Shown piece by piece: positions 26,201 through 64,000 of a stretch of 64,000 nucleotides of DNA. The notes beneath the pieces were generated by a model. That model was not told the DNA's origin. It ran no database searches and worked only from the letters and a program-made list of their open reading frames with translations. The stretch's first letter is position 1; each line of letters starts with the position of its first letter. Position numbers and translations under genes: made by a program. Source of the DNA: Paraphaeosphaeria minitans (lineage: Eukaryota; Ascomycota; Dothideomycetes; Pleosporales; Didymosphaeriaceae); contig WJXW01000006.1 in the NCBI GenBank assembly GCA_015832175.1, positions 1,860,001 through 1,924,000 on the forward strand, given 5' to 3'.

Positions 26201-26293
26201 AGAGAGGTTCTAAATAGAGTGTTGTATAATAATTTAAGCGTTGCTAAGTAAGCAGGGAGAATTATCCTACGTTCTAAGCGCTAGACTTATAAC

Positions 26294-26488
26294 TGTTATA
26301 GTAAAAAGGGCTTAAACTATCACAGGATATTCAGGAGCAGAGTTGTAAAGAATATAAATAGCTAATTGTAGGAAAGGATGCTAAAAGGGCAGACTATATA
26401 CAAAAGAAACGAGCCTCTTGGCAAGAATCCCGTGATCTGAATTAGTGGATCCAGAAAGAATCACGGAAGTGAGTGTTTTACTTTAACA
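26294..26488 (-). repeat. Copia A1 5' LTR
   Basis: 195 bp, starting TGTTATAGTAAAAAGG and ending TTTTACTTTAACA as written on the + strand, followed by the ATTTT duplication. It keeps more C and G than its partner, so it has been hit less by RIP-like mutation. Confidence 0.95.
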
Positions 26489-26493
26489 ATTTT

Positions 26494-26640
26494 AGATAGG
26501 ATAACTTAACTTATTCTTTTATATTCCTTACTTAAGGCAAACGCACCTACAACATCACATTTTTAGTAAAAGACATAGGACTACTTTTAAAAGAATGTAG
26601 AGAAGTATAGCGATAAGTATTTAGAGAACTAATAGAAGCT
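26494..26640 (+). repeat. Element B 5' LTR remainder and leader start
   Basis: The sequence continues from the duplicated ATTTT of copia A1 and is the right part of B's 5' LTR. The LTR end cannot be placed because B's 3' LTR is cut short by element C. A CA end near 26,554-26,560 (CTACAACATCACA) is a candidate. Confidence 0.5.
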
Positions 26641-26647
26641 GTTTAGT

Positions 26648-27022
26648 AGACTTTTAAGTAGCTGCTAAATAGCTAAGAATAAAGCGATAAGACTAATAGA
26701 CTTTTAAGTACCTATTAGGTACACAGACAAATAGACTGTATAGACTTTTAAGTAGTTATTAGTTGCCTAGACAGATAGATTAATAGACTTTTAAGTAGTT
26801 ATTAGTTACCTAGACAGATAGATTAATAGACTTTTAAGTAGTTACTAATTACCTAGAAATAAAATAACACACTAATAGACTTTTAAGCAGCTATCTAGTG
26901 CTAGTATAGACTATATAGACTTTTAAGTAGTTATTAGTTACCTAGGAACAAAATAATAATAAACTAATAGACTTTTAAGCAGCTATTAGGTAGAAAGAGC
27001 GATAGACTAGAGGACCTTTAAG
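26648..27022 (+). repeat. Minisatellite in the leader of element B
   Basis: About nine units start with AGACTTTTAAG (near 26648, 26698, 26742, 26784, 26828, 26877, 26917, 26968 and a variant near 27,010), spaced 40-51 bp. Many share AGTAGTTATTAGTTACCTAG. It lies between the 5' LTR and gag, in the untranslated leader where packaging signals usually lie. Confidence 0.85.
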
Positions 27023-27399
27023 TGGCCACTAGACTCCTAGAAAGACCAAATATAATAGACTCTAAATAATTCTAGTCTAAGTAACAATTAAGTTAGGGAT
27101 AAAAGAGGAAGTAAGGTATTAGTAGTAGGATTCTATTAAGTAAGATTATTATCTGTATACCTAAAGCTAAATCGCTAACAGGAAACTAATATAAAAACAA
27201 GTAGATAATAGAAGAAAAACAAAAAAAGAGAAAAAATATAGATTTATATAGGTTTTATAATAACCCTATTTATCTAACTACCCCTACTAAGAGTAGCACT
27301 AGTTAGATAAGTTAAGGTATTACTAATTACCTTTTAGAAGATATAGACAAAAGAAAATAGTTTAAGAATAGAGAACTAGAAATAAAAGGCTTCTCCTAA

Positions 27400-28800
27400 A
27401 AAAGAAACGTAGCTTAGTTTACTCTAAGCCTAAATAATAGTAATATACTAAGCTTTAGTAGTATTAATATTACTACCTTTCTAGAAAACTACGACTTTTA
27501 AGTAAAAAGAGTAGGGTAGAGTAAGGAGTTTAAGAAATAAAAGCTACCTTACTTCTACTTAGGCACCTACTAAAGGGATATTATAAAGCTACTAGCCTAT
27601 AGAAGCGCTTTAGTTAACTAGAAAAACTTCTAGAAGATACTTTACTCTAAGTACTTATTAATAGACTTAGAGTACTAAAAATTAACTAGAGCCTATCTTA
27701 AGAGCTAGCTTAATAAAGTAAGCTAATAGCCTATTACACTAAATAACCACTTCTATAAGTTTAATAGCTATACCTAAGCTACCCTTACTTAATTATAAAT
27801 TATATAGATAAAAGTAAGGACTCTTTTTTTTAAAAGTCTTAGCTAAGACGACAAGACTATAGTTATATATAAAATGCTAATAGAGAGTTGCTTAAGAGGA
27901 GGTAATATAAATACCTATTAGGTGTAAGAAATATACAATTTCCTTTGCTAGTGTAGAGACTAGGATAAGGCAATTAGGGCTATATAGTAGGAGGAGAGAT
28001 AGGTTACTATAAATCTAGCTTATTTTAAAACTACTTTGTTAGTAATCCTACTTATCCCACTACCTAGGAAGTTCTTTAAGGTACAGGAGGAAATAAGAAT
28101 AAGAGGAAATAAAGATTATAAGAAAGAAGTAAATGTGTAAGTCTAAAAAGTTATTATAAAAATAGGAGGACTTACCTTTACTATAGAAGAATATAAGTAA
28201 TAGAAAGCTTCTATACCTACTACTACTAGTCTTATTTTTAATAAGCTAGCTAATAACTAATACGCTTTTAATAAGCTTATAGGGCTAATCCTTTATATAG
28301 AACATAATAATAGGTTATTTAAGAGCTCCTATAACTCTATTATAAACCCTAGTGCGGGTACTTAGGTAATTCGCAATTAGGAATATTAAGCCTAGGCTTA
28401 TAGGACCTATAGAGAGACTAGGCACATTATAAAAGACTGCCCCTAGCGCTAAGGCCTTATTAAAAGAGGTTATTACTATGAAATCTTTAACACTAATAGC
28501 TAGTTTTTTAACTTCTACTATAGCCTAAAACACTTTTAGATAGAGAAATTTAGGGGGCCTATACCTTGCTTTTAGGGAGATATATAGCTCTAGTACCTAC
28601 TTAGGGAGATTAAATAGTATTTTAACATTACTAATAAGGATTTAGAGAAGAATTTTAGCTAGGTGCTAGGCCTAGAAAGTAAGAAAGCCTCTACTAATTT
28701 TAAACACAAATTAGGCTAATCGCATTTTAGGTTAATAAGTAGTAAATAGGGAGACTAGGAACTAGAAATAGAAGTAATAAGAAGGGCTAAAGCCTTCTAC
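27400..28800 (+). pseudogene. Element B gag remnant
   Basis: A Lys/Tyr-rich frame with frequent TAG codons follows the leader. A degenerate zinc-knuckle-like segment near 28,380-28,460 reads as a Cys/Tyr-rich stretch ending in HIIKDCP, the usual end of a CCHC motif. This is position- and motif-based. Confidence 0.55.
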
Positions 28801-29649
28801 GCTATTCTATTAGAGGTCTCCTACCTATCTAAAGAAGTTAATATAACTAAAGAAGTAAATACTGCTAGGACTAGGGTAGTAGAAAGGAGCTCACAGGAAT
28901 AATAGAACTAACTAGGTATTAAAAGGGTTATAGGGGCTAAAGTAAGTAAACTAGTGTTAGTGGCTTAAATAAGAGATCTTTAGGAAAAAAGAGTTAGGAT
29001 TAATCCTTAGCTATAGATTAGAGAATTCCGCCTAGGATCTCCTCTACTAGTAATTAATAATAATAAATTAGTGCTATAAGTAGTAGTTATAGAAGTAAAC
29101 TAAAGAGCTTTTAAACCTACCTAAAATGATAAAGAAGAGTATTATCTAAGCTATACTAGAAGCTAAGGCTGCTAGCAAAAAGAAGAGTGCTTAATTAGCC
29201 TCTACTCCTCTATTAGATAAAGAGCTAGTTATACTTATTAACATCCTAAATACTAATTCTATCCTAATAGCAGCACTAACCTAAAAGGTAAGAGGCATTA
29301 TAGTTAGATTAATATTTTCTTAGGATAAACTGTATTTAAAGGCCTAGTAACTACTCTCTACAAAAGAAAAAGAGCCTAATAACTAATTAAATAGGAGTAA
29401 ATTAGGAAATATCTTTATAGGGACATAATAAAGATAGGTTTTAATAGAAAAACAGAGTTAGAACCACCCTTAAGAACCTACTATCCTATTAGAAGCGATA
29501 ATAGAGAAGTTACACCCTAGCCTATACTAGATCGCGTAAAGAAACGCTACACAGAATACCTAATATAGTATTAAAGAGATGCAGGATAGATATTAGGAAG
29601 AAGCTAATAAGGTTAACCTCTAAAGTTAAACTAAGCTAGAAGAATAGAT

Positions 29650-32600
29650 AGGAGTTTAGAGTATTTTAGTAAAACTCCCTACCTATTTTATTACTATTTT
29701 TAGAAGCCACTATAAGGTTCTACTTAACTTAGGATTAGAACTAAATATTATAAAGTATACTACTGTAAGGGCACTTATTATTATAATCTAGAACTAAAAT
29801 TAGAGCTATTTACCTACTAAAGAATAATTAGGCATAGTAGGAGCTAGTAGAGATTTAGATAAGTATATAAGAACTATTTATAGTATACTACTTAAGGTTA
29901 GGCTAATTACAATTCCTACTTATTTTAAGATTATAAGAAACGTTAGAAGGCCTATTATCCTAGGCACCCCCTTTATAATAGCTACTTAGTTAGCTATAGA
30001 ATTTACCCTAATAGGCTAATACCTATATAGAGTTACCTCTATAGATAGGAAAAGAACAGTCTCTTTCTTTAGGTTAAATACTCTACTACTTTCTAACTAT
30101 AAGATAAGTAACAAGAATTTAGGAAATGTGTAAAGGGTGTGCTTATAGGGGAAGTACACTCGCTATAGGATTACTCTATTAGTGTGTACCTTAGTAATAA
30201 AGAAGTAGAGGATAAAGAAAATAAGTAGGAAATTAGTTAAGTAGAATTAATTAGACAATAAGTAAAAGAATGTTAGGTAATAGTAGCTAGATAATTAGGA
30301 ACTACCTATACTATATATAAGAAAGTAGTAAACAAAGTTTAGCCTATAGATAACTTAAAAGGAGACTGCCTATTAGAGGTAGAGAGATTAGATTAGGAAA
30401 AAAGAGCTATTAAATAATAATAAGCTGCGATAGCTTTTTAGGGACCTTAACTAGATGTATATTTAGGAATGTTTAAACCTAGATATATAGATTTTAGAAG
30501 GGGGCACTAATTAACACCTAAATAACTAAAGGAGATAAATGTTAGAGACTAGCTAAAACCTATAGAAATTTTACTTATCTATAAGCTAATGTTCTATTAG
30601 GAGGTAGCTCTAGTCTAGGAATTTAGTAAGATAATAACTATTAGTAAGGATATTATGCCTTTATACTAGATTTAGACTATCCTATATAAAGCCTAGTAGG
30701 TAAGAGGCTTTAACTGCCTAAAAAAGCTAGTGCCTATAGTACACTAGATAATTTTAAATTAGATTAACTAAAAAGTTCTTAAAATATACAACAGCTAATA
30801 TTAAAACCCCTAGTTCCTAGTACTAAAGAAAGATAAAGGGTACTAATTAATTAATAACGCCTAGTTCTATAATAAGGTTTTAGAAAGAGATGCTAATCTC
30901 CTACCCTTAGCTAATAAGTTTTTAGAGAGAATTAGAGGTAGAGTAATCTACTCTCTATTTAATCTATTTTTAGGGTTTAACTAGATACTGCTCTATACAG
31001 CCTTAAGAGATATAATAGCTTTTTAGATACTTATAGGCCTTATAAGGCACTACACACCGCTATAAGGTATAATAAATTTACTAAAAGCTTTTTAGAGAGC
31101 TATGTTAATAATCCTTTAGAGGTATTTCCCTAATACTTTACCCTTTATTAATAATATTGCATTAGCAGGACTAAAGTTAACCTATAGGGATAAAGAAGCC
31201 CTTCCTAGGGTACGCTAATTTATGCTCGAACATATTATATAGCTAGATAGGGTACTTACTAACCTAGAGAGGGCCTGTACTAGTATATTAGAAATAAAAT
31301 CCTTCTAAGGAGTGAACTAAATAGAAATTATAGGATATAAAGTATTGCCTAATAGCTAATCGCCCTAAGATAAGAAAGTGGCTAAGATTCTATACTAGAA
31401 AGAATGCACAAATTAAGGAGAAGTCTAATAGTTTATTAGAATTTACACTTACTATTACTAATAGATCTTCTACTTTTCTATTAAAGTAAAACCTTTGTAC
31501 ATGCTTACTAGGAAAGACTAAGAATAGAAGTAGGAAGATCTTAAGCGCTAATTAATAAATATTCTAAAAGAGAGTATTACTACTGCACTAGTTCTAATAA
31601 CTCTTAATTATAAATTAGGAAGGCAGATCTTCGTCTACGTAGATATAAGTTTATAAGGAGGAGAAGTCTGTATTAAGTAAGTAGAAGAGGATAGGAAGCG
31701 CCACCTAGTGCAGTTTAAAAGTATACTATAGTCTAAAGCAGAATTAAAGTAGCACTTAACTAAGCTTAAATGTAAAGTAGTAGTATAGGCACTAAAGAAG
31801 TTTATACTATACCTATATAGGACCTAATTTATTATTAAAATAGATGCGGCTACTCTAATTTTATAGCTTAACTAGTCTTCTACTAACCTCCCTAGATTAG
31901 TTATAAACTAATAGCTAGGTATAATACTGCTATAGGACTTTAAAATTGTCTATAGGCTAGGAAAACATAATATTATTACTAATAGATTATTAAGGTACCC
32001 CTAACTAGAAGAATAGACAGCGCTAGAAGAATTAGAAGAAGACTTAGGTCCCTTTATAGACTATATAGTAGAGAAGTATAATAATAGCTTAGTATTTACT
32101 TTGTAAGAGGCCTAGATCCTTAGTAAAGTCTTTTTAGAAGAATTAGAAGAAATAGTAAGGTTCTTACTATTTAGAAAAAAACCTAATAGGCTAATATCCT
32201 AGAAAAGCTGCCTTTTGTAGATAAAGAAGGCCTAAACCTTTTTTATAAAAGTAAACCTACTATTTAAGAAGTTAACTCTAAATCTTACTATCTAAAGGGT
32301 AATTAATAACCTAGATGTTTAAAAGGCACTTATTTAGGAGGTTTACTAGCACTTCTACTATAAAGGAATCTAGGCTATAAATACTACGATCTAGTTTTAG
32401 TTCTAGTAAGAGAGCTAGTTTAAGATAATTTAAACTAAGCTAAAGAAATATACTATCTATACTACTAAATAAAGTAATTAGATAGAGATAAGCCTTAAGA
32501 TTAGTAACTCTAGGACCTTATTTAAACAATAGACTATTAATATTACCTATATATCTATAAGTAAGTATTAGAAATTCTTTCTTATTGTTACTAGGGAATA

Positions 32601-32851
32601 CGCCTTAGGATGGCCTAAAGCTAGAGCGCTTATTAGAGTAGATTTAGAAAGTGTTACAAAGTTCCTCTATAAAGATATTATCTATAGGTAGGGGGTGTTT
32701 CCTTAACTAAGTGTAGATAGGGGGCCTAAAAACATATTAGTAGTTAAAGCACTAGCTAGACACTATAGGATACACTATATCTAAGCTTCCTCCTATAACT
32801 CTAAGGCTTAAGGACTAGTTAAATAAAGTTACTAATTACTTATTATAGCGC
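29650..32851 (+). pseudogene. Element B pol remnant, left part
   Basis: The protease is seen near 29,715 as LLNLGLELNIIKY (DSGAE expected) with IILGTPFI downstream near 29,955. Reverse transcriptase follows with LINNA, LLYTALRDI and TLPFINNIALAG near 31,130-31,175 (VDDI expected). RNase H and the zinc-binding part of integrase come next. Integrase core residues end in HYIQASSYNSKAQG-like sequence at about 32,815, where element D interrupts. Asp-to-Asn and Gln/Trp-to-stop changes fit G-to-A and C-to-T RIP damage. Confidence 0.8.
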
Positions 32852-33307
32852 TGTTAGGATCCGGCTACGCGCGAGCAGTAGGGCGCAAGCTTATTAAACT
32901 ACTAGTCTACTAGAGTTAGCTAACTAAGCAGTTAGATAATAGGTTATAGGTCCTAAGGGTCCTAAGGACTGCACAGGCCTCGCCTATATAGGAACTCTAG
33001 GACGCGTGGGACTTGCCCGCACAGGACTCTAGGACGTATAGGACTCTAGGACATATAGGACTCTAGGACATATAGGATTCTAGGATGTGTAGGACTACTT
33101 AGTATATAGGAACGCAAGAATAAGCTTCTTATACTTATATTTAATCTATTTATTAATCTATTATTTAGATTCTAGTAGACTAAATTATTAACTTATTATA
33201 CTTTGTAAAATACTATTATATTAATAAGACCTTCTACCTTCTATAAGTACTCCTGCCTAAGAACTAACTTTAACCCTTTAGGACTAGCTACCCTCTTAGA
33301 TTTAATA
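32852..33307 (+). repeat. Element D 5' LTR (U3 type 1)
   Basis: 456 bp, starting TGTTAGGATCCGG. The U3 part (32852 to about 33,098) includes an 18-bp minisatellite. From AGTATATAGGAACG at about 33,099 to the end the sequence is shared with the LTRs of C, E and F. Confidence 0.95.
32991..33095 (+). repeat. 18-bp minisatellite in U3 of element D
   Basis: About five units of GGACTCTAGGACATATA with variants, also present in the 3' LTR at 39252-39356. Units keep CpG (GACGCG), which RIP at CpA would leave alone. Confidence 0.85.
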
Positions 33308-35149: not shown

Positions 35150-38100
35150 AACAGATGTCTTTTTTAGGCCTAAACTTAGACAAGAAAACGCCTTTATTAA
35201 ATTAAATACTATAGTAAGTATAGTATTAATTAAGCTACTAGTATAGCTTAAAAGAATATAGGCTTAAGCTCTTATAGACTTAGAAGTAGAAAAGAACTTT
35301 ATATCTTATTAGATAGTAAGATAAGTAGGACTTATAATATTAGAGAAAGAAGTACCCTATATTGTCTATATCGCGAATAGATCCCTAATGCCTAAGGCAC
35401 CTTAAATATACTAAGAGGTTACTACTACAATATTAGTCTAAGGATATAGAGAGGAACTTACTTTAGATATCTTACTAGGATCTAAGCATAAGTTAGTTTT
35501 AGAATTATCTTAGTTAATAATACACAACCCGCAGATTAACTAGGGTATAAAGAAAATATTATTTAAACGCTGTAATTATATATTATAAGTAAAGCCTATA
35601 TATTAACTAAAAATAATAGTAGATAAGGGAGTTATTAATAATATAATACCGCGATAGATAGTTAAAAAATAGAAACACACCTTAGTAGACGCTAGTAGGA
35701 ACCACTAGGTTAAGAAGTGTAAGAAGGAGGATAATAGTATACCCTTTACCTTACTAAGAGAGTATAGGAAATAGACATATATATTTATAGAAAAGGAAGG
35801 AAAAGTAAACCTACCTAAACATTAACCCTAGGATCTTATAATAGACCTAGAAGAAGGGAAGACGCCACCCTTTAGACTACTATATAGTAAGATAGGAGAA
35901 GAACTCCTTAAAGAACGTGATTTTATTAAGATAAACCTTAAGAAAGGATATATATAACTATTAAAGTTACTAGCAGCAAGCCCTTTTATGTTTATTAAGA
36001 AAAAGGATAGATTAGATAGACTATACGTTAACTACTAATAACTTAATAATATAATAATAAAGAACTAATATCTACTACTAAATATTATAGAGTTATAAGA
36101 TTAACTATCTTAAGCTAAGATATTCACAATAATAGATCTAAGAGATAGTTACTACCTTATATAAATTAAGAAAGGTAAAGAATAGAAAACAGCGTTTTAA
36201 TTACGCTATAGACTATTTAAATATAAGGTTATGCCTTTTAGACTTATAAACGCACTAGCAGCTTTTATAGCGCTTATTAACAACGTACTCTACAAACATC
36301 TAGATATATTTATTATTACGTATATAGACAATATCCTTGTCTTTTCTAAAAACAAATTAGACTATACTAAGTATATATAGATAGTACTAGAAGCACTAGA
36401 CAAAGCATGCCTTTACATTAAACTTAAGAAATGTAAGTTTAACGTTAAATAACTTAAATTCCTAGGACACATTATTACTATAGAAGGAATTAAGATAGCA
36501 CTAAGTAAAGTCAAATACATTAAGAACTAGCTAATACTAAAGACAGCAAAGAACATCTAAGAATTTTTAGGATTCTATAGATTTAATTAACAATTTATCT
36601 AAAATTACATAAAAGTTATAATACCTTTAATAAATTTTATAAAGAAGGACATACCCTTTAAATAGATAGATAAGTGCAGAATGTTATTCTAACTTTTTAA
36701 AATAGTATGTATTATAGAACCTGTTCTTATTTATTTTAGAAGCGATAAACCACTACACTTTAAAATAGACGCTAGCGATCTTACGCTAGGCGCCTACGCT
36801 AAATAAGAATATAATAGTAAATAGCACCTAATTGCCTATTACTTATACAAATTTAATAACGCTAAAACATAATATAACGTATATAACAAAGAACTCTACG
36901 CTATTATTAAAGTCTTAAAGCACTAGAGGATTTATACGCTTAGTTACTTAACGCTAGAAATCTATATAGATTATAAGAACCTTCTAAGGCTTATAACAAT
37001 AAAAGAACTTACGCTATAATAATAAAGATAGTTATAAACCACTAGGTAGTATAAGTTTAAAATTATCTATATAGCTAGGAAAGAAAATAGCAGAGTAGAC
37101 GCTCTTAGCTAACAAAGTAATCTAGTAAGAGAAAAGGTAAAAACCTTTTCTGTAATCCTTTGTAAAGCTAAAGATAGATCTCTAGAACTAATAGCAGAAC
37201 TAAATTAACTTTTAGTAATTAACTAAGAAGTTTTAGAATATCTATAGACTAAGATTATCTAATAATACCATAATAACCCTATGTATAGACACCTAGGCAT
37301 TATAAAGATAATAGAACTTATCTAAAGGAATTATACCTTTAAAGGAATTAAGGAAGCTATAATAACTTATATCTATAAATGTGCAGAATACTAAAGAAAC
37401 AAACATAGTATATATCTCAAATATAGAGAGATATAAGTAATTAGAATACTAATAGCACTATAGGAAGACATCGCTATAGATTTTATTATAGGAATTCTAA
37501 ACTCTAAGGATCTAATAATAGAAATTAAATATAACAGTATACTAGTAATAGTCTACTAACTAACTAAGTATATTAAGCTTATTCTATACCTTAAAAGAAT
37601 AATAGTAAAAGAACTCGCTTTTCTTATCCTAGATAAACTAATTAGATACCACAGAATCCCAAAAATAATTATTAGCAATAGAGACAAGCTCTTTATATTA
37701 AATTATTAGATAACGCTTATAGTACTACTTAGAACGAAATAAAAGCTATTAACAGCTTACTATCTATAAACAGACGGATAGACAGAACGTATAAACTAAA
37801 CTATAGAAACGTACCTACGCATCTACTATAATAGTTAGAAGAATAACTAGGTTTTATTACTACCTATGGCACAGTTAGCCTATAATAACAAAGTATTAGT
37901 AGTATTAGGACATACACTATTCTATATAAACTACAGAAGACACCTACATCTCTTTAACCAATAATTTCCTACAATAATTAAAGCAAAAGAAGCCATAGAT
38001 ATAGTAGAAAATATAAAGAAAATACACTAATAACTCTAAGAGAATCTAGAGAAAGCTTAACAGCAATTAATTTTATATTAAAATAGAAAACGAAAAATGG

Positions 38101-38555
38101 CACCTTAGCTAAAGAAAGGGGATAAAGTATATCTGCTTATAAAGAACCTTTAAACTTAGAAGAGAAAATACAGGAAACTAGATTATATTAAAGTTAGACT
38201 ATTTTACATTTCTAAGTAAATATTACTAGTGAACTGTAAGTTGGAACTACTACTAGATATAAAGATACACCTAGTATTCTACGTATCACTACTAGAACTA
38301 GCAGACCCTAATATACTAGTTAAAACCACCTTCTACTACTAGACTAAGGAAGAAAATAAATTTAAGGTTAAAAGAATTCTAGAATATAATTAGTATAATA
38401 ACACGTACCTTGTTAAGTGGAAAGGTTACCTATATAGCAAAAACACCTAGGAACTAAAAAACAATCTAGGAAACTGTTAGTAAAAGATTAAAGAATTCTA
38501 CTAGAAACAACTAGAACGCACCTAGGAATTACTACTAGCATAAGGGCTAGCCTAT
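35150..38555 (+). pseudogene. Element D pol remnant with chromodomain
   Basis: Protease ALIDLEVEKNFI near 35,268-35,305 (DSGAEKNFI expected). Reverse transcriptase at about 35,980-36,520 with LYVNY, IIDLRDSYYLI and ITYIDNILVFSKNK at 36,313-36,354 (YVDD turned to YIDN). RNase H at about 36,755-37,020. Integrase at about 37,265-38,100 with IDFITGILNS. A chromodomain at about 38,366-38,480 reads YLVKWKGYLYSKNT, which tethers integration to chromatin in chromoviruses. Stops are TAG/TAA at expected Gln/Trp codons. Confidence 0.88.
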
Positions 38556-38569
38556 AAGATAGACTAGTT

Positions 38570-39100
38570 AATTACCTTAGCGCCTAATAGCGCGTTAAGA
38601 TTTATTAATATAGTAGCCTACGCTAGTTCCTCCTGCGCCTTAAGCGCTTCTAACTTGTCTATAGTACTTATGCTATAATTAAATAATTCTTATTCTTTTT
38701 AACGTAATTTCTTTTACTAATTACATAAGCGCGCTATCTTCTCTTACGCCTAATAGGCGTGAAAGAGAGCTACCTTAGCTAGCTCTTCTTTAATATAGAG
38801 CTTTACCTCCTTTTTAGCCTCTAACTTTTCTAACCTCTCTATTTTAGTATTTATTTTTAAATAATCTAGTAAAGGAATCTCCTTAGGCTTACACTTCTAG
38901 TTTCTCTATCTAACGCAGTTAGTACACTAAAAATATAAAGAAGAAAGGTAATAAGTATATTTCTTCTTAGCGTAGTATAAATAGGTAACTATTGCAAAAA
39001 CGTAGTCTTTTTTAAGATAATTAGCTTAACTATAGTAATATTAAATAGAATAAGATAATAACTTTATAGGTAGTTAACTTATAAGGATATTAAGCTTAGA
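38570..39100 (-). pseudogene. Antisense Cys-cluster/coiled-coil frame of element D
   Basis: On the strand opposite to gag-pol, a frame runs from near the 3' LTR towards the chromodomain. It shows a first cluster fitting C-x2-C-x4-C-x-C (several Cys now Tyr; the Tyr at 38972-38974 is still Cys in element C). A second cluster C-x2-C-x7-C follows at about 38,891-38,926 (CTNC...KC). After KPKEIPLLDYLKI comes a charged helical region with IERLEKLEAKKEVKL and IDKLEALKA, a likely coiled coil. Internal stops are TAG/TAA only at Gln/Trp-like positions. I cannot name the protein; the pattern recurs in C, E and F. Confidence 0.65.
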
Positions 39101-39112
39101 GAGGGAGGATAA

Positions 39113-39568
39113 TATTAGGATCTAGCTATATATAAGTAGTAGGGCGCGAGCTTATTAGACTACTAGTCTACTAGAGTTAGCTAACTAAGTAGTTAAATAA
39201 TAGGTTATAGGTCCTAAAAGTCCTAAGGACCGCATAGGCCTTGCCTGTATAGGAACTCTAGGACGCGTGGGACTCGCCCGCACAGGACTCTAGGACATAT
39301 AGGACTCTAGGACATATAGGACTCTAGGACATATAGGATTCTAGGATGTGTGGGACTACTTAGTATATAGGAACGCAAGAATAAGCTTCTTATACTTATA
39401 TTTAATCTATTTATTAATCTATTATTTAGATTCTAGTAGACTAAATTATTAACTTGTTACACTTTATAAGATATTATTATATTAACAAGACCTTCTACCT
39501 TCTGTAAGTACTCCTGCCCAAGAACTAACCTTAACCCTTTAGGACTAGCTACCCTCTTGGATTTAACA
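39113..39568 (+). repeat. Element D 3' LTR (U3 type 1)
   Basis: 456 bp, starting TATTAGGATC (TG mutated to TA) and ending TTTAACA. It matches 32852-33307 with mostly transition differences. Confidence 0.95.
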
Positions 39569-44899: not shown

Positions 44900-47800
44900 G
44901 CCTAAACTTAGATAAAAAAACGCCTTTATTAAATTAAATACTATAGTAAGTATAGCATTAGTTAAGCTACTAGTATAGTTTAAAGGAATATAGGCTTAAG
45001 CTCTTATAGACTTAAAAGTAGGAAGGAACTTTATATCTTACTAAATAGTAAAATAAGCAGGACTTATAATATTAAAGAAAAAAGTACCCTATATTATCTA
45101 TATTGTAAATGGATCCCTAATGCCTAAGACACTTTAGATATACTAGGAGGTTATAACTATAATAACAGTCTAAGGACATAGAAAGAAACTTACTTTAGAT
45201 GTCTTACTAGGATTTAAGTATAAGTTAGTTTTAGAATTACCTTAGTTAATAATACATAACCCGCAGATTAACAAAGGTATAAAAAGAATATTATTTAAAC
45301 ACTGCAATTATATATTATAAGCAAAGCCTATATATTAACTAAAAATAATAGTAGATAAGGGAGTTATTAATAATATAATACTACAACAGATAGTTAAAAA
45401 ACAAAAGTATACCTTAGCAGACGCTAGTAGGAACTACTAGATTAAGAAGTGCAAGAAGGAGGATAATAGTACACCTCTTACCTTACTAAGAGAGTATAGG
45501 AAATAGACATATATATTTACAAAGAAAGAAGGAAAAGCAAACCTACTAGAATATTAACCCTAGAATTTTATAATAAATCTAGAAAAAGGGAAGATGCCAC
45601 CCTTTAGACTACTATATAGTAAGACAGGAAAAGAACTCCTTAAAGAAAGTAATTTTATTAAAATAAACCTTAAGAAGGAATATATATATAACTATTAAAG
45701 TTACTAGTAGTAAGCCCTTTTATGTTTATTAAGAAAAAGGATAGATTAGACAGACTATATATTAACTACTAATAACTTAATAATATAATAATAAAAAACT
45801 AATATTTACTACTAAACATTATAGAGTTATAAGATTAACTATCTTAAGCTAAGATATTCATAATAATAAATCTAAGAGACAGTTACTACCTTATATAAAT
45901 TAAGAAAGGTAAAGAATAGAAAATAGCGTTTTGATCACGCTATAGACTATTTAAATACAAGGTAATGCCTTTTAGACTTATAAACGCACTAGCAGCTTTT
46001 ATAGCACTTATTAATAATGTACTCTATAAACATCTAGACATATTTGTTATTATGTATATAGACAATATCCTTGTCTTTTCTAAAAACAAATTAGACTACA
46101 CTAAGTATATATAAAGAGTACTAGAAGCACTAGACAAAGCATGCCTTTATATTAAAGTTAAGAAATGTAAGTTTAATATTAAATAACTTAAATTTCTAGA
46201 ACATATTATTACTATAGAAGGAATTAAGATAGCACTAAGTAAAATTAAATATATTAAGAACTAGCTAATTCTAAGAATAGCTAAGAATATCTAAGAATTC
46301 TTAGTATTCTATAGATTTAACTAATAATTTATCTAAGATTACGTAAAGGTTACAATACCCTTAATAAATTTTATAAAGAAGGACGTACCCTTTAAATAGA
46401 TAAATAAATGCGGAATGTTATTCTAACTCCTAAAAGACAGTATACATTATAGAACCTATTCTTGTTTATTTTAGAAGTAATAAACCACTATAATTTAAAA
46501 CAGACGCTAGCGATCTTACGCTAGGCGCCTACACTAAATAAGAACGTAATAGTAAATAGCACCTAATTACTTACTACTTATACAAATTTAATAACGCTAA
46601 AACACAATACAACGTATATAATAAAGAACTCTACGCTATTATTAAAGCCTTAAAGCACTAGAGGATCTACGCACTTAGTTACTTAACGCTAGAAATCTAT
46701 ATAAATTATAAGAACTTTTTAAGGTTCACGATAATAAAAGAACTTACGCTATAATAATAAAAATAGTTGTAGACTACTAGGCAGTGTAAGTTTAAAATTA
46801 TCTATATAGCTAGAAAAGAAAATAGCAGAGCAGACGCTCTTAGCTAATAAAGTAATCTAGTAAAAGAAAAAGTAAAAACCTTCTTCGCAATCCTTTACAA
46901 AGCTAAAAATAGATCTCTAGAACTAATAGTAGAACTAAATTAACTTTTAGTAATTAACTAAGAAGTTATAGAACATCTATAGACTAAAATTATCTAATAA
47001 TACTATAATAACCCTATGTACAGACACCTAGGCATTATAAAAATAATAGAACTTATTTAAAGAAATTACACCTTTAAAGGAATTAAAGAAGCTATAATAA
47101 CTTATATATATAAATGTATAGAATACTAGAGAAATAAACATAGTATATATCTTAAATACAGAAAGATGTAAGTAATTAGAATACTAATAGCACTATAGGA
47201 AGACATTACTATAGATTTTATTACAGGAATTCTAAACTCTAAAGATCTAATAACAGGAATTAAATACAATAGTGTACTAGTAATAGTCTACTAACTAACT
47301 AAGTATATTAAGCTTATTCTATGTCTTAAAAGAATAATAGTAAAGAAACTCGCTTTTCTTATCCTAGACTAACTAATTAGATATTATAGAATCCTAAAAA
47401 TAATTATTAGTAACAGAGATAAGCTTTTCACGTTAAATTACTAGACAACGCTTATAGCCCTACTTAGAACAAAATAAAAGCTATTAACAGCTTACTATCT
47501 ATAAATAGATAGATAGATAGAACGTATAAACTAAACTATAGAAACGTACCTACGTATCTACTGTAATAGTTAGAAAAATAACTAGGTTTTATTACTACCT
47601 ATAGCATAGTTAGCCTATAATAACAAAGTATTAGCAGTATTAGGACATACACTATTCTATATAAACTATAGAAGACACCTATATCTCTTTAATTAACAAT
47701 TTCCTACCACAATTAAAGCAAAAGAAGCTATAAATATAGTAGAAACTATAAAGAAAATACACTAATAACTCTAAAAGAACCTTAAAAAAGCTTAATAGCA

Positions 47801-48320
47801 ATTAATTTCTTACTAAAATTAAAAATATAAAACAGCACTTTAGCTAAAGAAGGGGGATAAAGCATATCTACTTATTAAGAACTTTTTAACTTAGAAGAAA
47901 AAACACAAGAAACTATATTATATTAAGGTTAGACTATTTTACAATTCTAAATAAATATTACTAGTAAACTATAAACTAGAACTACTAGCCAACGCGAAGA
48001 TACACCTATTATTTTATATATCCTTATTAGAACTAGTAGACTTAGAAACGCCAATTAAAACCACCTTCTATTACTAACCTTAGGAAGAAACTAAATTTAA
48101 AGTAGAATAAATCCTATAAGTACACGACGTGTATATAGATATAGAAGTATACCTTATTAAGTAGAAAGGGTATTTGTCTAGTAAAAACATATAGGAACCT
48201 AAAGAAAACCTGTCTAACTATTAATAATAGATAAATAACTTCTACAATTAAACGCTAGAAATTATAAGAAGACAACTATAACGCACTTAGGAATTACTAC
48301 TAGCACAAAGGCTAGCCTAT
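44900..48320 (+). pseudogene. Element C pol remnant with divergent chromodomain
   Basis: Protease, reverse transcriptase (YIDNILVFSKNK near 46,054-46,090), RNase H (about 46,500-46,770) and integrase (about 47,000-47,850) follow D closely. The chromodomain at about 48,090-48,230 differs clearly from those of D, E and F (contains VYLIK-KGYLSSKN after a different lead-in), and similarity to D returns abruptly at about 48,283. Confidence 0.8.
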
Positions 48321-48334
48321 ATAATAGACTACTT

Positions 48335-48865
48335 AATTACCTTAGCGCCTAATAGCGTATTAGGATTTATTAACGCAGTAGCTTACGCTAACTTTTTCTA
48401 CACTTTAAGCGCTTCTAACTTGTCTATAGTACTTATACTATAATTAAACAATTTTTATTTTTTCTAACGTAATTTCTTTTACTAATTACGTAAGCGCGCT
48501 ATCTTTTTTTACGCCTAATTAGCGCGAAGGAGAGCTGCTTTAGCTAGCTTTTTCTTAATATAAAGTTTTGCCTCCTTTTTAGCCTCTAACTTTTTTAACC
48601 TCTCTATTTTAGTATCTATTTTTAAATAATCTAGTAAAGGGATCTCTTTAGGCTCGCACTTCTAGTTTCCCTATTTAACGTAGTTAATACACTAAGAGTG
48701 TAAAGAAGAAAGATAATAAATATATTTCTTCTTAGCGCAGTATAAATAGGTAACTATTGCAAAAATATAGTCTTTTTTAAGATAATTAGCTTAACTATAG
48801 CAATATTAAATAGAATAAAATAATAACTTTATAGGTAGTTAACTTATAAGGATATTAAGCTTAAA
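48335..48865 (-). pseudogene. Antisense Cys-cluster/coiled-coil frame of element C
   Basis: The same frame as in D, on the minus strand. In the first cluster the codon at 48737-48739 reads TGC (Cys), where D has TAC. The second cluster (about 48,655-48,690) keeps the first and last Cys. The coiled-coil block IERLKKLEAKKEAKL and the end STIDKLEALK are conserved. Differences from D are mostly single transitions. Confidence 0.65.
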
Positions 48866-48877
48866 GGGTAAGGATAA

Positions 48878-49063
48878 TATTAGAATCTAGCTACGCATAA
48901 GTGGTAGGGCATAAGCTTATTATACTTCTAGACTACTAGTCTGCTAGAGTTAGCTAACTAAGTAGTTAGGTAATAGGTTATAGGTCCTAAGGATCCTAAG
49001 GACCGCATAGGCCTCGCCTATACAAGAACTCTAGGACATATAGGACTCGCCCACACAAGACTC
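48878..49063 (+). repeat. Element C 3' LTR (U3 type 1), truncated by E
   Basis: 186 bp of D-type U3, preceded by AAAGGGTAAGGATAA. It has fewer of the 18-bp minisatellite units than D, and stops at AAGACTC, where E begins. Confidence 0.9.
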
Positions 49064-49466
49064 TGTTACAAACCAGATAGCAATGTGGGAGTTAGGCGCT
49101 TATAAAGGTATAATAAAGCGATAACAGGGTTACAGACGTAATAAAGAAAATACTAAGAGGCTTAGATTAGATTACGTAATAAGCTTAGCCGCTTAGGAGC
49201 CCTAAGCAGGTCACGTAATACGATTAATTACTTAGGGGCACTAAGTAGTAGAGCAGCCTTAGTATATAGGAACGCGAGGATAGACCTCTATACTTGTGTT
49301 TAATCTGTTTATTAATCTATTATTTAGATTCTAGTAGACTAAATTGTTAACTTATTACACTTTATAAGATACTATTATATTAATAAAACCTTCTACCTTC
49401 TATAAGTACTCCTGCCTAAGAACTAACCTTAACCTTTTAGGACTAGCTACCCTCTTAGATTTAACA
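49064..49466 (+). repeat. Element E 5' LTR (U3 type 3)
   Basis: 403 bp. U3 contains two related blocks with TTAC/TCACGTAATACG and ACTTAGGGGCACTAAG. The shared TATA-R-U5 part starts at about 49,261 (AGTATATAGGAACGCG) and ends TTTAACA. Confidence 0.92.
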
Positions 49467-49499
49467 TCTTAAACACCCTTAATATAAGTACTTTACAAA

Positions 49500-50469
49500 C
49501 TCCTACCTCTTCTATAGCTTTAGGTGCTACTAAAATTACTCCTATAAAAGATAGTAGTAAGGCGTATAAACCTAATCTCTACTTTAGTAAATAATTTTAA
49601 ACTAACGTCTAGATTCTCTAGTTAGACCTCTACTTCTTTAACTTAGACAAACCTCTTAAAGATAAAAAAAAGGTTATCTTCGCAGCAATATATATGCGAG
49701 GAGATATAGGATTATAGATCTATTCTTACCTTAAAAAGTACCTAGGAATAGACCATAATAATAATAATAATTACGCAAATAAGCACGCTAATATAGTTAA
49801 TATTATTAAGAATTATAATAACTTTAAGAAATCCCTTAAACAACTGTTTAGGATTACTAATAAGGACTCTATTACAAAAGCAAAGATTTAGACTATAACT
49901 TAGAAATAATTAGCAGCTAAGTATATAGCTAAGTTTTATAGGTACGCTGTATAACTTAACTTAGATAATAAATTTCTTTAAGATATATATAAATAAGGAC
50001 TTAAATAGAAACTATATAAGGAACTCTTATATAGTAGTGCGTAAATTACTAACTTTAAGAAACTGTATAAAGAAACTATTAGGATTAATAAAAAAAGGGT
50101 TTTACTATAACAGGAGCTCTACTAAAACTCTAAGATAATAAGCTTTAGATAACTAGTAAAAGTAGTTTATAAGAACCCTATTAAAGTTATCTTAAAGCAA
50201 TAACTAAGGAACTACTAGAGATATAAACTAATAAAAGATATTGAGTTTAACTATGTAGATAAAGGAAAAGGAGGAAGAATAGGCCCTAAGTAGCCTAATA
50301 AACGCGTCTCTAATAGAAGTTAATAACTAATAACTAAGACCTATAGATGCTTTATATGTAGCAAACTGGGCTATATAGCTAGAAACTATAGATTAAAGAA
50401 CAAAGTCTATTAAACTAAGTTAAATATACTAACTATTAAGGACTAAGAACCTAATAAGAAATAGGAAGT
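49500..50469 (+). pseudogene. Element E gag remnant
   Basis: Collinear with gag of D and C as far as GAACCTAATAAGAAATAGG, including the zinc knuckle at about 50,347-50,390 (CFICSKLGYIARNY). It then jumps directly to the RNase H/integrase border. Confidence 0.78.
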
Positions 50470-51950
50470 TAAAGATAGTTACAGACTACTAGGTAATATA
50501 AGTTTAAAAATATCTATATAGCTAAAAAAGAAAATAGTAGAGTAGACGCTCTTAGCTAATAAAGTAATCTAGTAGGAAGAAAAAGCAAAACCTTTCTCTA
50601 TAATCCTTTATAAAGCTAAAGATAGATCTCTAGAACTAATAGCAGAACTAAATTAACTTTTAGTAATTAACTAAGAAGTTCTAGAACATCTACAGACTAA
50701 GATTATCTAATAATACCACAATGACCCTATGTACAGACACCTAGGTGTTACAAAAATAATAGAACTTATCTAAAGGAACTATACCTTTAAAGGAATTAAA
50801 GAAGCTGTAATAACTTATATCTATAAATATGCAGAATGCTAGAAAAATTAATATAGTATACACCTTAAATATAGAGAGATGTAAGCAATTAGAATACTAA
50901 CAGCACTATAGGAAGACATTACTATAGATTTTGTTACAGGAATTCTAAACTTTAAGGATCTAACAATAGAAATTAAATATAACAGTATACTAGTAATAGT
51001 CTACTAACTAACTAAGTATATTAAGCTTATTTTATGCCTTAAAAGAATAATAGCAAAGGAACTCGCTTTTCTTATTCTAGACTAACTAATTTAATATTAT
51101 AGAATCCTAAAAATAATTATTAGTAATAGAGATAAGCTCTTTACGTTAAATTACTAGACAACGCTTATAGTCCTACTTAAAATGAAACAAAAGCTATTAA
51201 CAGCTTACTATTTATAAATAGACAAATAGACAGAACGTACAAACTGAATTATAGAAACGTACCTACACATTTACTATAACAGTTAGAAAAATAACTAGAT
51301 TTTATTACTACTTATAGCATAGTTAGCCTATAATAATAAAGTATTAGTAGTATTAGGACATACACTGTTCTATATAAACTATAGAAAACACCTACATCTC
51401 TTTAAGTAATAATTTCCTATAATAATTAAAGCAAAAGAAGCCATTAATATAGTAGAAAATATAATAAAAATATACTAATAACTCTAAGAAAATCTTAACA
51501 AAGCTTAGCAGTAATTAATTTTATACTAAAACTAAAAATAAAAAACGGCACCTTAGCTAAAGAAGGGGGATAAAGTATATTAAAGAACTTTTAAACTTAG
51601 AAGAGGAAACACAAGAAACTAGATTATATTAAAGTTAGACTATTTTACATTTCTAAGTAAGTATTACTAGTAAACTATAAGTTAGAACTACCGCCAGATG
51701 TAAAGATACACCTAGTATTCTACGTGTTATTACTAGAACTAGTAGACCCTAATACTCTAATTAAGACAACCTTCTACTACTAAGCTAAGGAAGAAAATAA
51801 ATTTAAAGTTAAAAGAATTCTAGACTATAATTAGTAAAATAAAATATACCTTATTAAATAGAAATTTTACGTATACAGCAAAAACACTTAGGAACTAGTA
51901 ACTTACTTAGGGAACTATTAACACAAAATTAAGGAATTTTATAAACGCCT
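50470..51950 (+). pseudogene. Element E integrase and chromodomain remnant
   Basis: Begins at the deletion junction with AAAGATAG (D position about 37,024). Integrase blocks run to about 51,560 and a D/F-like chromodomain lies at about 51,810-51,930. Protease, reverse transcriptase and RNase H are missing. Confidence 0.8.
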
Positions 51951-51984
51951 AACACAACATAATATTATTCTTACCTAAGAAGGC

Positions 51985-52505
51985 AGAGTTACAGAGTTGT
52001 CCTAGAACTCTAAGGGAAGATTATTTATTGCTAACTAAATAGATATACTAAGCTCTGCGGGACTTATAGGCTAAGTAGGCTAAGCTAGGTCCTTCTCTAA
52101 CTCTATTAGCGCAGCACTTTCTACTATAATTACCTCTCTAGCACGCTTTTTATTCTACACTAACTATTTTAATAACTACTTCTCTTTTACGCGTGCTATA
52201 CATAGCGCCTTAAATATAATATTTTATTCTTTACGCGCCTCTAATATTTACACCTCTAACTTCTTCTTTTTAGACACTAACCGCAAGAACTTATTTTAAG
52301 TAATAGCTATATTACACTTTAATCTTTATTTCTAACACTTACTACACTTCCCTAAGCTAACATAAACCTTATATATATAAAAATGCGCCTTATAGAAAGA
52401 ATACTTAGATACTATAATAGCACTATAATTTTTAATAGTAAAGATAAGGTTGTAATAACGCTTTATACTATTATAATTAGTAGGTATAATTCTTTAGGAC
52501 GAAGA
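51985..52505 (-). pseudogene. Antisense Cys-cluster/coiled-coil frame of element E
   Basis: On the minus strand a frame is readable from about 52,505. The first cluster fits C-x2-C-x4-C-x-C with Tyr in the Cys places (YSFYKAHFYIY). The second keeps all three Cys in KCSKC and KCN, spaced C-x2-C-x6-C. A Lys-rich helical stretch and LIELEKDLA follow. The sequence differs from D/C but the layout is the same. Kept although pol is lost. Confidence 0.65.
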
Positions 52506-52524
52506 ATAGAAAGGGAGGGGATAA

Positions 52525-52636
52525 TATTATAAACTAGATAGTAATATAGGAGTTAGGCGCTTATAAAGGTATAATAAAGCGATAATAGGGTTGTAGACGT
52601 AATAAGGAAAATGCTAAGAGGCTTAGATTAGATTAC
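52525..52636 (+). repeat. Element E 3' LTR, left part
   Basis: 112 bp matching the 5' LTR start, with TG mutated to TA, preceded by the purine tract AAGGGAGGGGATAA. It ends in ATTAC, the target site duplicated by copia A2. It resumes at 59918 and continues to 60027. Confidence 0.9.
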
Positions 52637-60027: not shown

Positions 60028-60439
60028 TGTTAAATCTAAGAGGGTAGCTAGTCCTAAAGGGTTAAAGTTAGTTCTTAGGCAGGGGTACTTACAGAAGGTG
60101 GAAGGTCTTATTAATATAAGAGTATCTTGCAAAGTGTAATAAGTTAATAATATAGTCTACTAGAATCTAAATAATAGATTAATAAATAGATTAAATATAA
60201 GTTATAGAGAGCCTATTCTTACGTTCCTATATACTTTAAGTAATTAGTCTACTAATTGCTCTAATTCAACTAATTAAGCACTAATTAGTTACTTAGTATA
60301 TTAAGTGCTTAGTCTAATTAGTTATCTTAGCGCTCTAATCACACTAATTAGGTTACGTGACCTCTTATACTATACCGCTCGAACAATAAATATAGATATA
60401 TATAAAGATCCTAAGAGGCCTAGCCTTTAAATCTTAATA
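60028..60439 (-). repeat. Element F 3' LTR (U3 type 2)
   Basis: Starts TGTTAAATCTAAGAGGG and ends ATCTTAATA on the + strand; same length as the C 5' LTR. On the minus strand a purine tract (GAAGGAAGATAA) precedes it. Confidence 0.92.
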
Positions 60440-60482
60440 TTATCTTCCTTCTTGCTAGGATTTATTCTTAAATTATATAACT

Positions 60483-61103
60483 ATGTCTTATATCTAGTTA
60501 TAACTAGAGCTCGCTCTGCGTTATAAGTAGCGTTAGCTTACTTATATTATACCTAAACAACTTTCTAAGTCTAGCACTACTTATTACTATTACTTAACTA
60601 ATTTTATTAACTTCTTTAGTAAAGTTATAGTTAAGAAATACTTAATATGTATAAAATATAACTGTGTTTATAAGGCTCACATTTAGTCTAGAAAATATAG
60701 AGAATATATTTATTAAGGTTAACATTATAATATACGCGTTTTAGAGTCTAAGTTTAAGCGTTTATTAGCAGAGAAAAAGAAATTACGTGTGTAGATAAAA
60801 GAGTTAAAAGAAAAATAGGAGGCTATATTTAAAGTCTATAAGGAGGCGTTAGAGAAATTATAGGTTATATGTATACATAAAGATTAGTTATGTTAGTAAA
60901 TAGACTTACTAGATAAGTATACTAAGAATATAATAGTAGTTAAGGAGAAGAATATTAAGAAAGCTAAATCTTATAAGGCTATTAATTTAGTAGTTAATAA
61001 GACTTCTTTAGGTCTCTTTTTGTCCCCTATAATATAGAGCGCTTTTAAGGATTTCCTATTAGAATTCTAGAATAATCTAGTGCCTTTACTATTTTAGGTA
61101 TAA
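60483..61103 (+). pseudogene. Antisense Cys-cluster/coiled-coil frame of element F
   Basis: The clearest copy. An ATG at 60483, only 44 bp inside the LTR, opens a frame of about 207 codons on the strand opposite to gag-pol, ended by TAA near 61,101. All internal stops are TAG or TAA in Gln/Trp-like places. Residues from about codon 53 fit C-x2-C-x4-C-x-C (YLICIKYNCVY, Tyr for Cys), then C-x2-C-x6-C near 60,698-60,730 with Tyr for Cys. A strongly charged helix follows (FKRLLAEKKKLRV, IKELKEK), then a C-terminal region with NKTSLGLFLSP. No known protein is recognised. Confidence 0.7.
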
Positions 61104-61159
61104 ATATTATTATACTATATAGGTTGTTAGTAGAATTCTTTAATTTTTTATTAATAGTT

Positions 61160-64000
61160 TCCTAGGTAGTTCTCTAGTTCCTAAGTGTTTTCGCTATGTA
61201 GGTAACCTTTCTACTTAATAAGATATGCGTTACTATACTAATTATATTCTAGAATTCTTTTAACCTTAAATTCCTTTTCTTCCTTAGTTCTATAGTAGAA
61301 GGCGGTTTTAACTAGTGTATTAGGGTCTACTAGTTTTAGTAGTAATACGTGGAATACTAGGTGTATCTTTGTATCTAGCGGTAGTTCTAACTTATAGTTT
61401 ACTAGTAATATTTACTTAGAAATATGAAATAGTCTAACTTTAATATAATCTAGTTTCTTATATTTCTTCTTCTATATTTAAAAGTTTTTATAAGTAGATA
61501 TGCTTTATCCCCCTTCTTTACCTAAGGTGCTGTTTTACGTTTTTAATTTTAGTAAGAAATTAATTACTACTAATCTTTCTTAAGATTCTCTTAGAGTTAT
61601 TAGTGTATTTTCTTTATATTTTCTGCTATATCTATAGCTTCTTTTACTTTAATTGTTGTAGGAAATTATTAATTAAAGAAATGTGGGTGTCTTCTATAGT
61701 TTATATAAAATAGTGTATGTCCTAATACTACTAATACTTTATTATTATAGGCTAACTATGCTATAGGTAGTAATAAAACCTAGTTATTTTTCTAACTATT
61801 GTAGTAGATGCGTAGGTACGTTTCTATAGTTTAGTTTGTATATTCTACCCATCTGTCTATTTATAGATAGTAACCTATTAATAGCTTTTATTTTATTCTA
61901 AGTAGGACTATAAGCGTTATCTAATAATTTAACGTAAAGAGCTTGTCTTTATCGCTAATAATTATTTTTAGGATTCTGTAGTGTCTAATTAGTTAGTCTA
62001 GGATAAAAAAGGCAAGTTCCTTTACTATTATTTCTTTAAGGCATAAAGTAAGCTTAATATACTTAGTTAGTTAGTAGACTATTACTAGTATACTGTTATA
62101 TTTAATTCCTATAGTTAGATCCTTAGAGTTTAGAATTCCTATAACAAAATCTATAGCAATATCTTCTTATAGTGCTGTTAGTATTCTAATTACTTATATT
62201 TTTTTATATTTAAAATGTGTGCTGTGTTTATTTCTCTAGTATTCTGTATATTTATAGATATAAGTTATTATAGCTTCCTTAATTCCTTTAAAGGTGTAAT
62301 TCCTTTAAAGGTGTAATTCCTTTAGATAAGTTCTATTATTTTTGTGATGCCTAGGTGTCTGTACATAGGGTTATTATAGTATTGTTAGATAATCTTAGTT
62401 TATAGATGTTCTAGAACTTCTTAGTTAATTACTAAAAGTTAATTTAGTTCTATTATTAGTTCTAGAGATCTATCTTTGGCTTTGCGAAGGATTGCAAAGA
62501 AGGTTTTTACCTTTTCTCTTACTATATTACTTTGTTAGCTAAGAGCGTCTGCTCTGCCATTTTCTTTTCTAGCTATATAGATAATTTTAAACTTATACTA
62601 CCTACTAGTTTATAACTATCTTTATTGTTGTAGTGTAAGTTCTTTTATTATTATAAACCTTAGAAGGTTCTTATAATCTATATAGATTTCTAGTATTAAG
62701 TAACTAAGCGCGTAAATCCTCTAGTGCTTTAAGGCTTTAATAATAGCGTAAAGTTCTTTATTATATACGTTGTATTGTGTTTTAGCGTTATTAAATTTGC
62801 ATAAGTAATAGGTAATTAGGTGCTATTTACTATTACGTTTTTATTTAGCGTAGGCGCCTAGCGTAAGATTCCTAGTATCTATTTTAAATTATAGTGGTTT
62901 ATTGCTTCTAAAATAAATAAGAATACGTTCTATAATATATACTATTTTTAGGAGTTAGAATAACATTCCGCATTTATTTATCTATTTAAAGGGTACGTCC
63001 TTCTTTATAAAATTTATTAAGGGTATTGTAACCTTTACGTAATCTTAGATAAATTATTAGTTAAATCTACAGAATTCTAAGAATTCTTAGATATTCTTAG
63101 CTGTCCTTAGTATTAGCTAGTTCTTAATATATTTAATTTTACTTAGTGCTATCTTAATTCTTTCTGTAGTAATAATGTGTCCTAGGAATTTAAGTTATTT
63201 AACGTTAAACTTACATTTCTTAAGTTTAATACAAAGGTATACTTTATCTAGTACTTCTAGTACTATTTATACATACTTAGTGTAGTCTAATTTGTTTTTA
63301 GAAAAGACAAGGATATTATCTATATACACAATAACAAATATGTCTAGATGTTTATAGAGTATATTATTAATGAGTGCTATAAAAGCTACTAGTGCGTTTA
63401 TAAGTCTAAAAGGCATAATCTTATATTTAAATAGCCTATAGCGTAATTAAAATACTGTTTTCTATTCTTTACCTTTTTTAATTTATATAAAGTAGTAACT
63501 ATCTCTTAGATCTATTATTATAAATATCTAAGCTTAGAATAGTTAATCTTATAACTCTGTAATATTTAGTAGTAAGTATTAGTTCTTTATTATTATGTTA
63601 TTAAGTTATTAGTAGTTAACGTATAGTCTGTCTAATTTATCCTTTTTCTTAATAAATATAAAAGGGCTTACTACTAGTAACTTTAATAGTTATATATATT
63701 CTTTTTTAAAGTTTGTTTTAATAAAATTACGTTTTTTAAGGAGTTCTTTTTCTATCTTACTATATAGTGGTCTAAAGGGTAGCGTCTTCCCTTTTTCTAG
63801 GTCTATCTTAAGATCCTAGGGTTAATATTCTAGTAGATTTGCTTTTTCTTCCTTCTCTATAAATATATATATCTATTTCCTATACTCTCTTAGTAAGGTA
63901 AAAGGTGTACTATTATCTTCCTTCTTACACTTCTTAACCTACTAGTTCCTACCAGCGTCTACTAAGGTGTGCTTCTATTTTTTAACTATTTATTATAGTA
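61160..64000 (-). pseudogene. Element F pol remnant
   Basis: Minus-strand pol collinear with D. Chromodomain at about 61,170-61,262 (YLI-KGYLHSENT), integrase about 61,290-62,480, RNase H about 62,600-62,900, reverse transcriptase about 62,990-63,860, with the YVDD block at about 63,300-63,336. A 17-bp tandem duplication (TTCCTTTAAAGGTGTAA) lies near 62,284-62,330 in the integrase part. Confidence 0.82.

Follow-up and report, generated by a model that had tools for sequence, protein, structure and literature searches.

A 64-kb stretch of the Paraphaeosphaeria minitans genome (47.45 Mb in 30 contigs), called the window below, has a G+C content of only ~0.25-0.33 from ~20 kb onward, where it consists of a nest of long terminal repeat (LTR) elements damaged by repeat-induced point mutation (RIP). 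Four chromovirus copies in this nest, elements C, D, E and F, each carry an antisense frame between pol and the 3' LTR, and the existence of this frame was confirmed. With un-mutated relatives as queries, tblastn matched it in C (39070-38525), D (48835-48290), E (52487-51978) and F (60549-61067), and all four frames were opposite in strand to pol, adjoined the chromodomain and converged with it. An earlier reading of the window, made from the sequence only, had described the frame in all four copies, E included; both tblastn and the mapping of open copies bear this out (E mapped to 51975-52487, minus strand), and the coordinates proposed then were correct within ~50 bases. For E, the frame was said to have outlived other coding parts. 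The features of the four elements are as follows, with antisense frames placed by mapping of open copies, registers counted from the six-cysteine register, and pol ends placed by tblastn.

60483..61097, plus strand: element F antisense frame, RIPed, with in-frame stops, 205 codons
60639..60728, plus strand: F six-cysteine register, C-x2-C-x6-C-x8-C-x2-C-x6-C (Cys or Tyr in copies)
60028..60451, minus strand (the element lies on the minus strand): F 3' LTR, estimated edges; the inner one lies 32 bp away from where the antisense frame starts
61097..61519, minus strand: F pol, integrase end and chromodomain, convergent with the antisense frame
38522..39082, minus strand: element C antisense frame, RIPed
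38891..38983, minus strand: C six-cysteine register
38049..38498, plus strand: C pol, integrase end and chromodomain
39110..39567, plus strand: C 3' LTR, edges by mapping
48287..48847, minus strand: element D antisense frame, RIPed
48656..48748, minus strand: D six-cysteine register
47784..48218, plus strand: D pol, integrase end and chromodomain
48875..49465, plus strand: D 3' LTR, apparently doubling as the 5' LTR of E, edges by mapping
51975..52487, minus strand: element E antisense frame, RIPed
52314..52403, minus strand: E six-cysteine register
52092..52298, minus strand: E stretch corresponding to the long helix (residues 64-132) in the model of an open relative, counted from the mapping
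51577..51975, plus strand: E pol, integrase end and chromodomain
52513..52636, plus strand: E 3' LTR, beginning only, near edge by mapping

The antisense gene occupies the whole interval from the stop codon of pol to the polypurine tract, and the adjoining pol terminates in a chromodomain (Pfam). In place (pol end to 3' LTR) and in strand (opposite to gag-pol) the frame is of the kind termed aORF-3R. By mapping, the antisense start lies 28 bp from the edge of the 3' LTR in C and in D, 26 bp in E and 32 bp in F, which replaces the 44 bp given previously for F; for the open copies, LTR boundaries were placed by eye from the sequence. The pol match begins at query residue 143 in E and at residue 2 in C, D and F (tblastn), and this late start would fit the deletion noted earlier for E.

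Open and RIPed copies in the genome

The same genome holds open antisense frames at the same place in two copies, C15 (170 aa) and C19 (186 aa), both beside stop-free 3' ends of pol, so that the search for intact frames at this position, which the sequence-only reading had proposed, was successful. The C15 frame is 100% identical to P0006, a database protein of P. minitans. The chromodomain is convergent with the antisense frame in both open copies; the stop codons of pol (1930) and of the antisense frame (1927) overlap in the C15 copy (L090), and the corresponding ends in the C19 copy (L089) are 1914 for pol and 1908 for the antisense frame.

In DNA searches with the F, D and E frames, 40 copies each were scored, out of 169, 183 and 196 candidates. 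Of the 88 copies retrieved, a set that was gathered via the antisense region and includes three of the window's own, 86 have a convergent chromodomain at most 700 bp away (27/28 for F, 30/30 for D, 29/30 for E); the exceptions are a copy scored as same-strand and another with no chromodomain nearby. The converse search from the 3' end of pol scored 128 places of 1050 candidates. Only those of C15 and C19 were stop-free, and both adjoin open antisense frames; the first 10 of these places were inspected by eye, and nine adjoin an antisense match, the fifth being without one among the matches listed. The antisense searches gave stop-free places in 1/150 and 1/150 of the places scored, and for the F group the genome searches recovered RIPed copies only.

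In the window, RIP has inactivated every copy of the antisense gene. As compared to the open C19 frame, the C/D copies have C>T or G>A in 23.9% of cells, with 0.8% reverse transitions and 0.3% transversions, and the values for the main E group against C15 are 24.6%, 0.4% and 0.5%. C>T was found at 86% of CpA, 66% of CpG and 11-12% of CpC/CpT cells. RIP thus accounts for the broken window frames and also for the Cys-to-Tyr pattern in the copies, which had been proposed from the window letters: apart from two cells in E, every residue in the six register columns is Cys or Tyr across the RIPed groups, which comprise 31, 33 and 30 rows with the window copy counted twice in each. A further group, E2 (L083-L088, L055, L039), has ~78-85% identity to E and the same antisense frame; it shows 24.4% C>T/G>A, 3.1% reverse transitions and 4.5% transversions, and its non-RIP differences suggest divergence before RIP. 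Two F-type copies 3.6 kb apart (L005 and L006, at G000:C2:4436595 and 4432959) have identical translated frames though RIPed, which suggests a duplication later than RIP.

The open C15 copy has features of its own. Its 3' LTR contains, near the LTR beginning, an insertion of ~1.1 kb (L090 2517-3675) flanked by two copies of a 13-bp direct repeat, and because of this insertion most of the LTR is set apart from the start of the antisense frame. Between its 5' and 3' LTRs only R/U5 match (231 bp, 95%; L092 1975-2203 against L090 3806-3901 plus L091 1-131), and the copy looks mosaic, not simply young, because the U3 parts are unmatched. The LTR (L090 3664-3901) also contains two CACGTG palindromes within short repeats.

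The encoded protein and its relatives

The antisense protein has ~170-210 residues: a basic N-terminal part is followed by a six-cysteine cluster, a single long helix and a tail that is acidic and rich in aromatic residues. The layout C-x2-C-x6-C-x8-C-x2-C-x6/7-C was found in 72 of 94 family sequences (92 database proteins and two genome frames, P0006 being the C15 frame), in nine others Tyr replaces at least one Cys of this spacing, and the remaining 13 lack it. The first cluster had been read from the damaged window copies as C-x2-C-x4-C-x-C, a string present in just 3 of the 94. Instead, the layout matches the spacing of the Zn(2)-C6 domain (PF00172), which we take to be C-x2-C-x6-C-x5-12-C-x2-C-x6-8-C. 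Among 59 aligned relatives the layout is kept at 21-84% identity; the net charge of the N-terminus plus cluster is +7 to +11 in 58/58, and the tail is net negative in 53/56.

Profiles of RIPed rows, with X at stops, recovered three intact relatives for F and two for C/D. The profile built from the two open frames and P0001 matched 90 proteins at E<=0.01, the best outside the query being P0007 (2.0e-65), and the named relatives are from P. minitans (P0005, P0006, P0019) and Sporormia fimetaria (P0058). UniRef names P0006 and P0058 'Zn(2)-C6 fungal-type', with no retrotransposon link visible in that listing. The sources of P0022, P0038 and P0083 carry the names of unrelated proteins (galactokinase, AcrA) and are probably mislabelled.

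Heavily RIPed DNA could in principle yield such a frame by chance or composition: the window frames are full of stops, and a high A+T content makes Lys, Tyr and Ile codons more frequent whatever the frame. This explanation has a negligible probability, as it is contradicted by the open frames in the same genome, by the relatives reaching 2.0e-65 outside the query and by the register, which is unique among the six frames. In the RIPed groups the six-cysteine register scores best of all positions and best of the six frames; the same spacing reaches at most 4.2 of 6 in the other five. When 200 random spacings were tried in the correct frame, a value of 5.9 was reached by none for D, two for E and none for F.

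Two AlphaFold2 models (mean pLDDT, the predicted local distance difference test, 82.1 and 80.7) each show a short helix after either CxxC pair and, further on, a single long helix spanning 63-69 residues, which agrees with the Lys/Glu-rich helix that the earlier reading placed after the cysteines. Among the structural matches listed in the PDB, Zn2Cys6 proteins made up 10/10 for one model and 12/14 for the other, and the closest had a root-mean-square deviation of 1.1-2.0 A over 33-38 residues. hhalign against GAL4 and LAC9 aligned all six cysteines, with a probability of 72 and E 3.4e-5 for the pair. The protein resembles the Zn(2)-C6 factors GAL4, LEU3, PPR1, HAP1 and PUT3 in the six-cysteine spacing, the long helix and the acidic tail, and by prediction may share their cluster fold; unlike them, it falls below the Pfam cut-off, is only ~170-210 aa long and is carried on the antisense strand of a retrotransposon. 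The C19 protein scored 14.9 bits against Zn_clus, the cut-off being 21, and the C15 protein gave no Zn_clus row; among 59 relatives, nine had Zn_clus at E<=1, the best at 0.0044 (Pfam).

Pfam scans of the window frames (X at stops), the RIPed E rows and P0001-P0005 gave nothing useful, as did the NCBIfam scan and the PDB sequence searches with two profiles and the C15 protein. Two scans of viral contigs returned 37 and 5 pattern matches and no relative, and the viral-protein fold search with the C19 model gave 23 matches at E<=10, none of them at E<=0.001. DUF3716 was considered as the source of the cysteine pattern and was absent among the Pfam families listed. Overall, the protein is likely to be a DNA-binding dimer of the predicted Zn2Cys6 type.

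Selection on the antisense frame

Constraint on the protein was read from changes that RIP cannot make, counted once per column, present in at least two distinct rows, with duplicates dropped. Sorted by position within the antisense codons (first/second/third), such changes numbered 1/0/12 in C/D (31 rows), 0/1/7 in main E (24 rows) and 10/4/40 in E2 (8 rows; chi-square p ~1e-9). The synonymous share was 12/13 in C/D, 5/8 in main E and 39/54 in E2, where uniform change would give 19-20%. In the six-frame control the antisense frame was the richest in synonymous changes (12/13, and 43/62 in the E set with the window copy twice), followed by the opposite-strand frame that has the same third positions (11/13 and 33/62). 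No opposite-strand frame spans the antisense stretch; the longest stop-free run there spans 114 codons (C15) or 120 codons (C19). Between more distant groups the bias is weak, fixed transversions of C15 against F being 38/31/49 by codon position, and C19 against E (40/44/40) has no bias in an alignment that is poor and partly out of phase.

The clustering of non-RIP changes at third positions argues for purifying selection on a protein. The antisense gene is almost certainly protein-coding and under selection, and it is probably functional; the view taken in the sequence-only reading, that the gene is kept by selection on its protein, is supported, since the non-RIP changes show constraint on the antisense frame. 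Counting only RIP-impossible changes thereby lets protein constraint be read through heavy RIP. An antisense transcript could also act as RNA, through double-stranded RNA, silencing or interference, with the frame being incidental, and non-coding antisense transcripts of LTR elements are known, as described in a review (PMC7264820). Such an RNA role is contradicted by the third-position bias and the synonymous excess in the antisense frame, and by the layout retained in 72/94 sequences and in relatives at 21-84% identity, and we regard it as very improbable.

Possible role and known counterparts

The best explanation overall, which we consider moderately probable, is an LTR-driven antisense gene for a dimeric Zn2Cys6-type regulator of the element's own LTRs. 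The 3' LTR, read backwards, would start the antisense mRNA; with only 26-32 bp between start codon and LTR, an mRNA with a longer leader would have to begin in the LTR, and an antisense promoter there is plausible from the arrangement. The protein would dimerise via its long helix, taken as a coiled coil, enter the nucleus and bind DNA via the zinc cluster, and the acidic tail may act as an activation-like segment. The combination of zinc cluster, long helix and acidic tail within such a small protein is what would be expected of a fungal transcription factor that works as a dimer. The likeliest target would be the element's own LTRs, with gag-pol transcription being regulated by activation or self-limitation, and host promoters would be the next candidate. 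That LTR self-regulation is the main role has about an even chance.

The search for a target gave mixed results. The un-RIPed C19 LTR (L089 873-1320) contains 16 CGG/CCG half-site pairs, as compared to a shuffle mean of 5.8 (2/300 shuffles were as high). The LTR pieces of C15 have no CGG half-site pairs, and with one LTR rich in them and the other without, CGG sites as the self-target are unsupported. The absence of CGG pairs from the LTR pieces of one un-RIPed copy favours the main rival, in which the DNA-binding dimer acts on the host and not on the LTR, either countering silencing or altering host genes in favour of the element. The architecture of the protein is that of a host-type regulator, and the heavy RIP of these elements in this genome would make a counter-measure pay. 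We regard host-directed action as unlikely.

The protein may also aid the DNA stage of the element, through nuclear entry, chaperoning or the choice of integration site by DNA tethering. Chromodomains are targeting modules in other elements, and here the neighbouring pol terminates in one; the basic N-terminus and the zinc cluster would suit such a helper. Nuclear or accessory roles of antisense open reading frames are also discussed in the review (PMC7264820). However, one would hardly expect a structural helper to end in an acidic, aromatic tail or to have its own antisense gene, and this reading seems slightly less probable again than action on the host.

HBZ of human T-cell leukaemia virus type 1 (HTLV-1) is encoded by an antisense gene beside the 3' LTR, is a dimeric DNA-binding protein of the bZIP type and has a role in self-limitation. 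The antisense gene of P. minitans likewise adjoins the 3' LTR and is predicted to encode a dimeric DNA-binding type, and the comparison with HBZ made in the earlier reading is fair in position and perhaps in role. The two differ in that HBZ is a bZIP protein whereas the cluster here is Zn2Cys6-like. HBZ is not a relative, because of this cluster and because no bZIP family was matched: at E<=10, none appeared among all Pfam families listed for either open-copy protein (C15 and C19). Nor is a sequence relation between the two known.

A nearer precedent than HBZ, absent from the earlier reading, is brtn, which Boty-like retrotransposons of Botrytis cinerea carry in antisense and which was reportedly described by Zhao et al. 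in 2011 (Virology 417:248). According to four sources (PMC7264820, PMC8365987, PMC4227169, PMC5987419), brtn is an extra antisense gene between pol and the 3' LTR of a gag-pol element with a chromodomain. The likeness is one of position: both cases concern a fungal chromodomain element with the gene in the same place and orientation; the hosts differ, Botrytis being a Leotiomycete and P. minitans a Dothideomycete. Plant elements of the aORF-3R kind, as covered in the review (PMC7264820), include Grande gene23, RIRE2, Retand ORF4 and PvRetro13, and at least the protein of Grande is nuclear. Place and orientation are as in the P. minitans elements and the protein types differ. Antisense genes between pol and the 3' LTR are already known, from brtn and the plant elements. 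In the literature searched, which was partial and had most subscription journals outside it, we found no LTR element described as coding for a Zn2Cys6 protein on its antisense strand. Nor did we see there an account of how widely such a protein occurs, of open copies at this position or of protein constraint recovered despite RIP.

If this holds, a group of fungal retrotransposons has its own transcription-factor-like antisense gene, and the old question of the role of antisense genes beside 3' LTRs becomes testable with a concrete protein type. It would also be a reason to relabel many hypothetical fungal proteins as proteins of mobile elements. More tentatively, with chances a little short of even, a widespread clade of fungal chromoviruses may use antisense transcripts started by the LTR to make a GAL4-type regulator, comparable to HBZ in design but outside the retroviruses, that balances activity and silence of the element or tunes host genes. 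A large number of entries in public genomes and metagenomes, now labelled 'hypothetical' or 'Zn(2)-C6', would then be unrecognised retrotransposon genes.

Two further observations concern the nest itself. Its AT-rich part at 19000-33000 of the window has no match to the pol of the C-F chromovirus clade and probably contains other element types. At 48875-52636, one LTR is apparently common to D and E (internal-LTR-internal), a pattern expected from unequal recombination.
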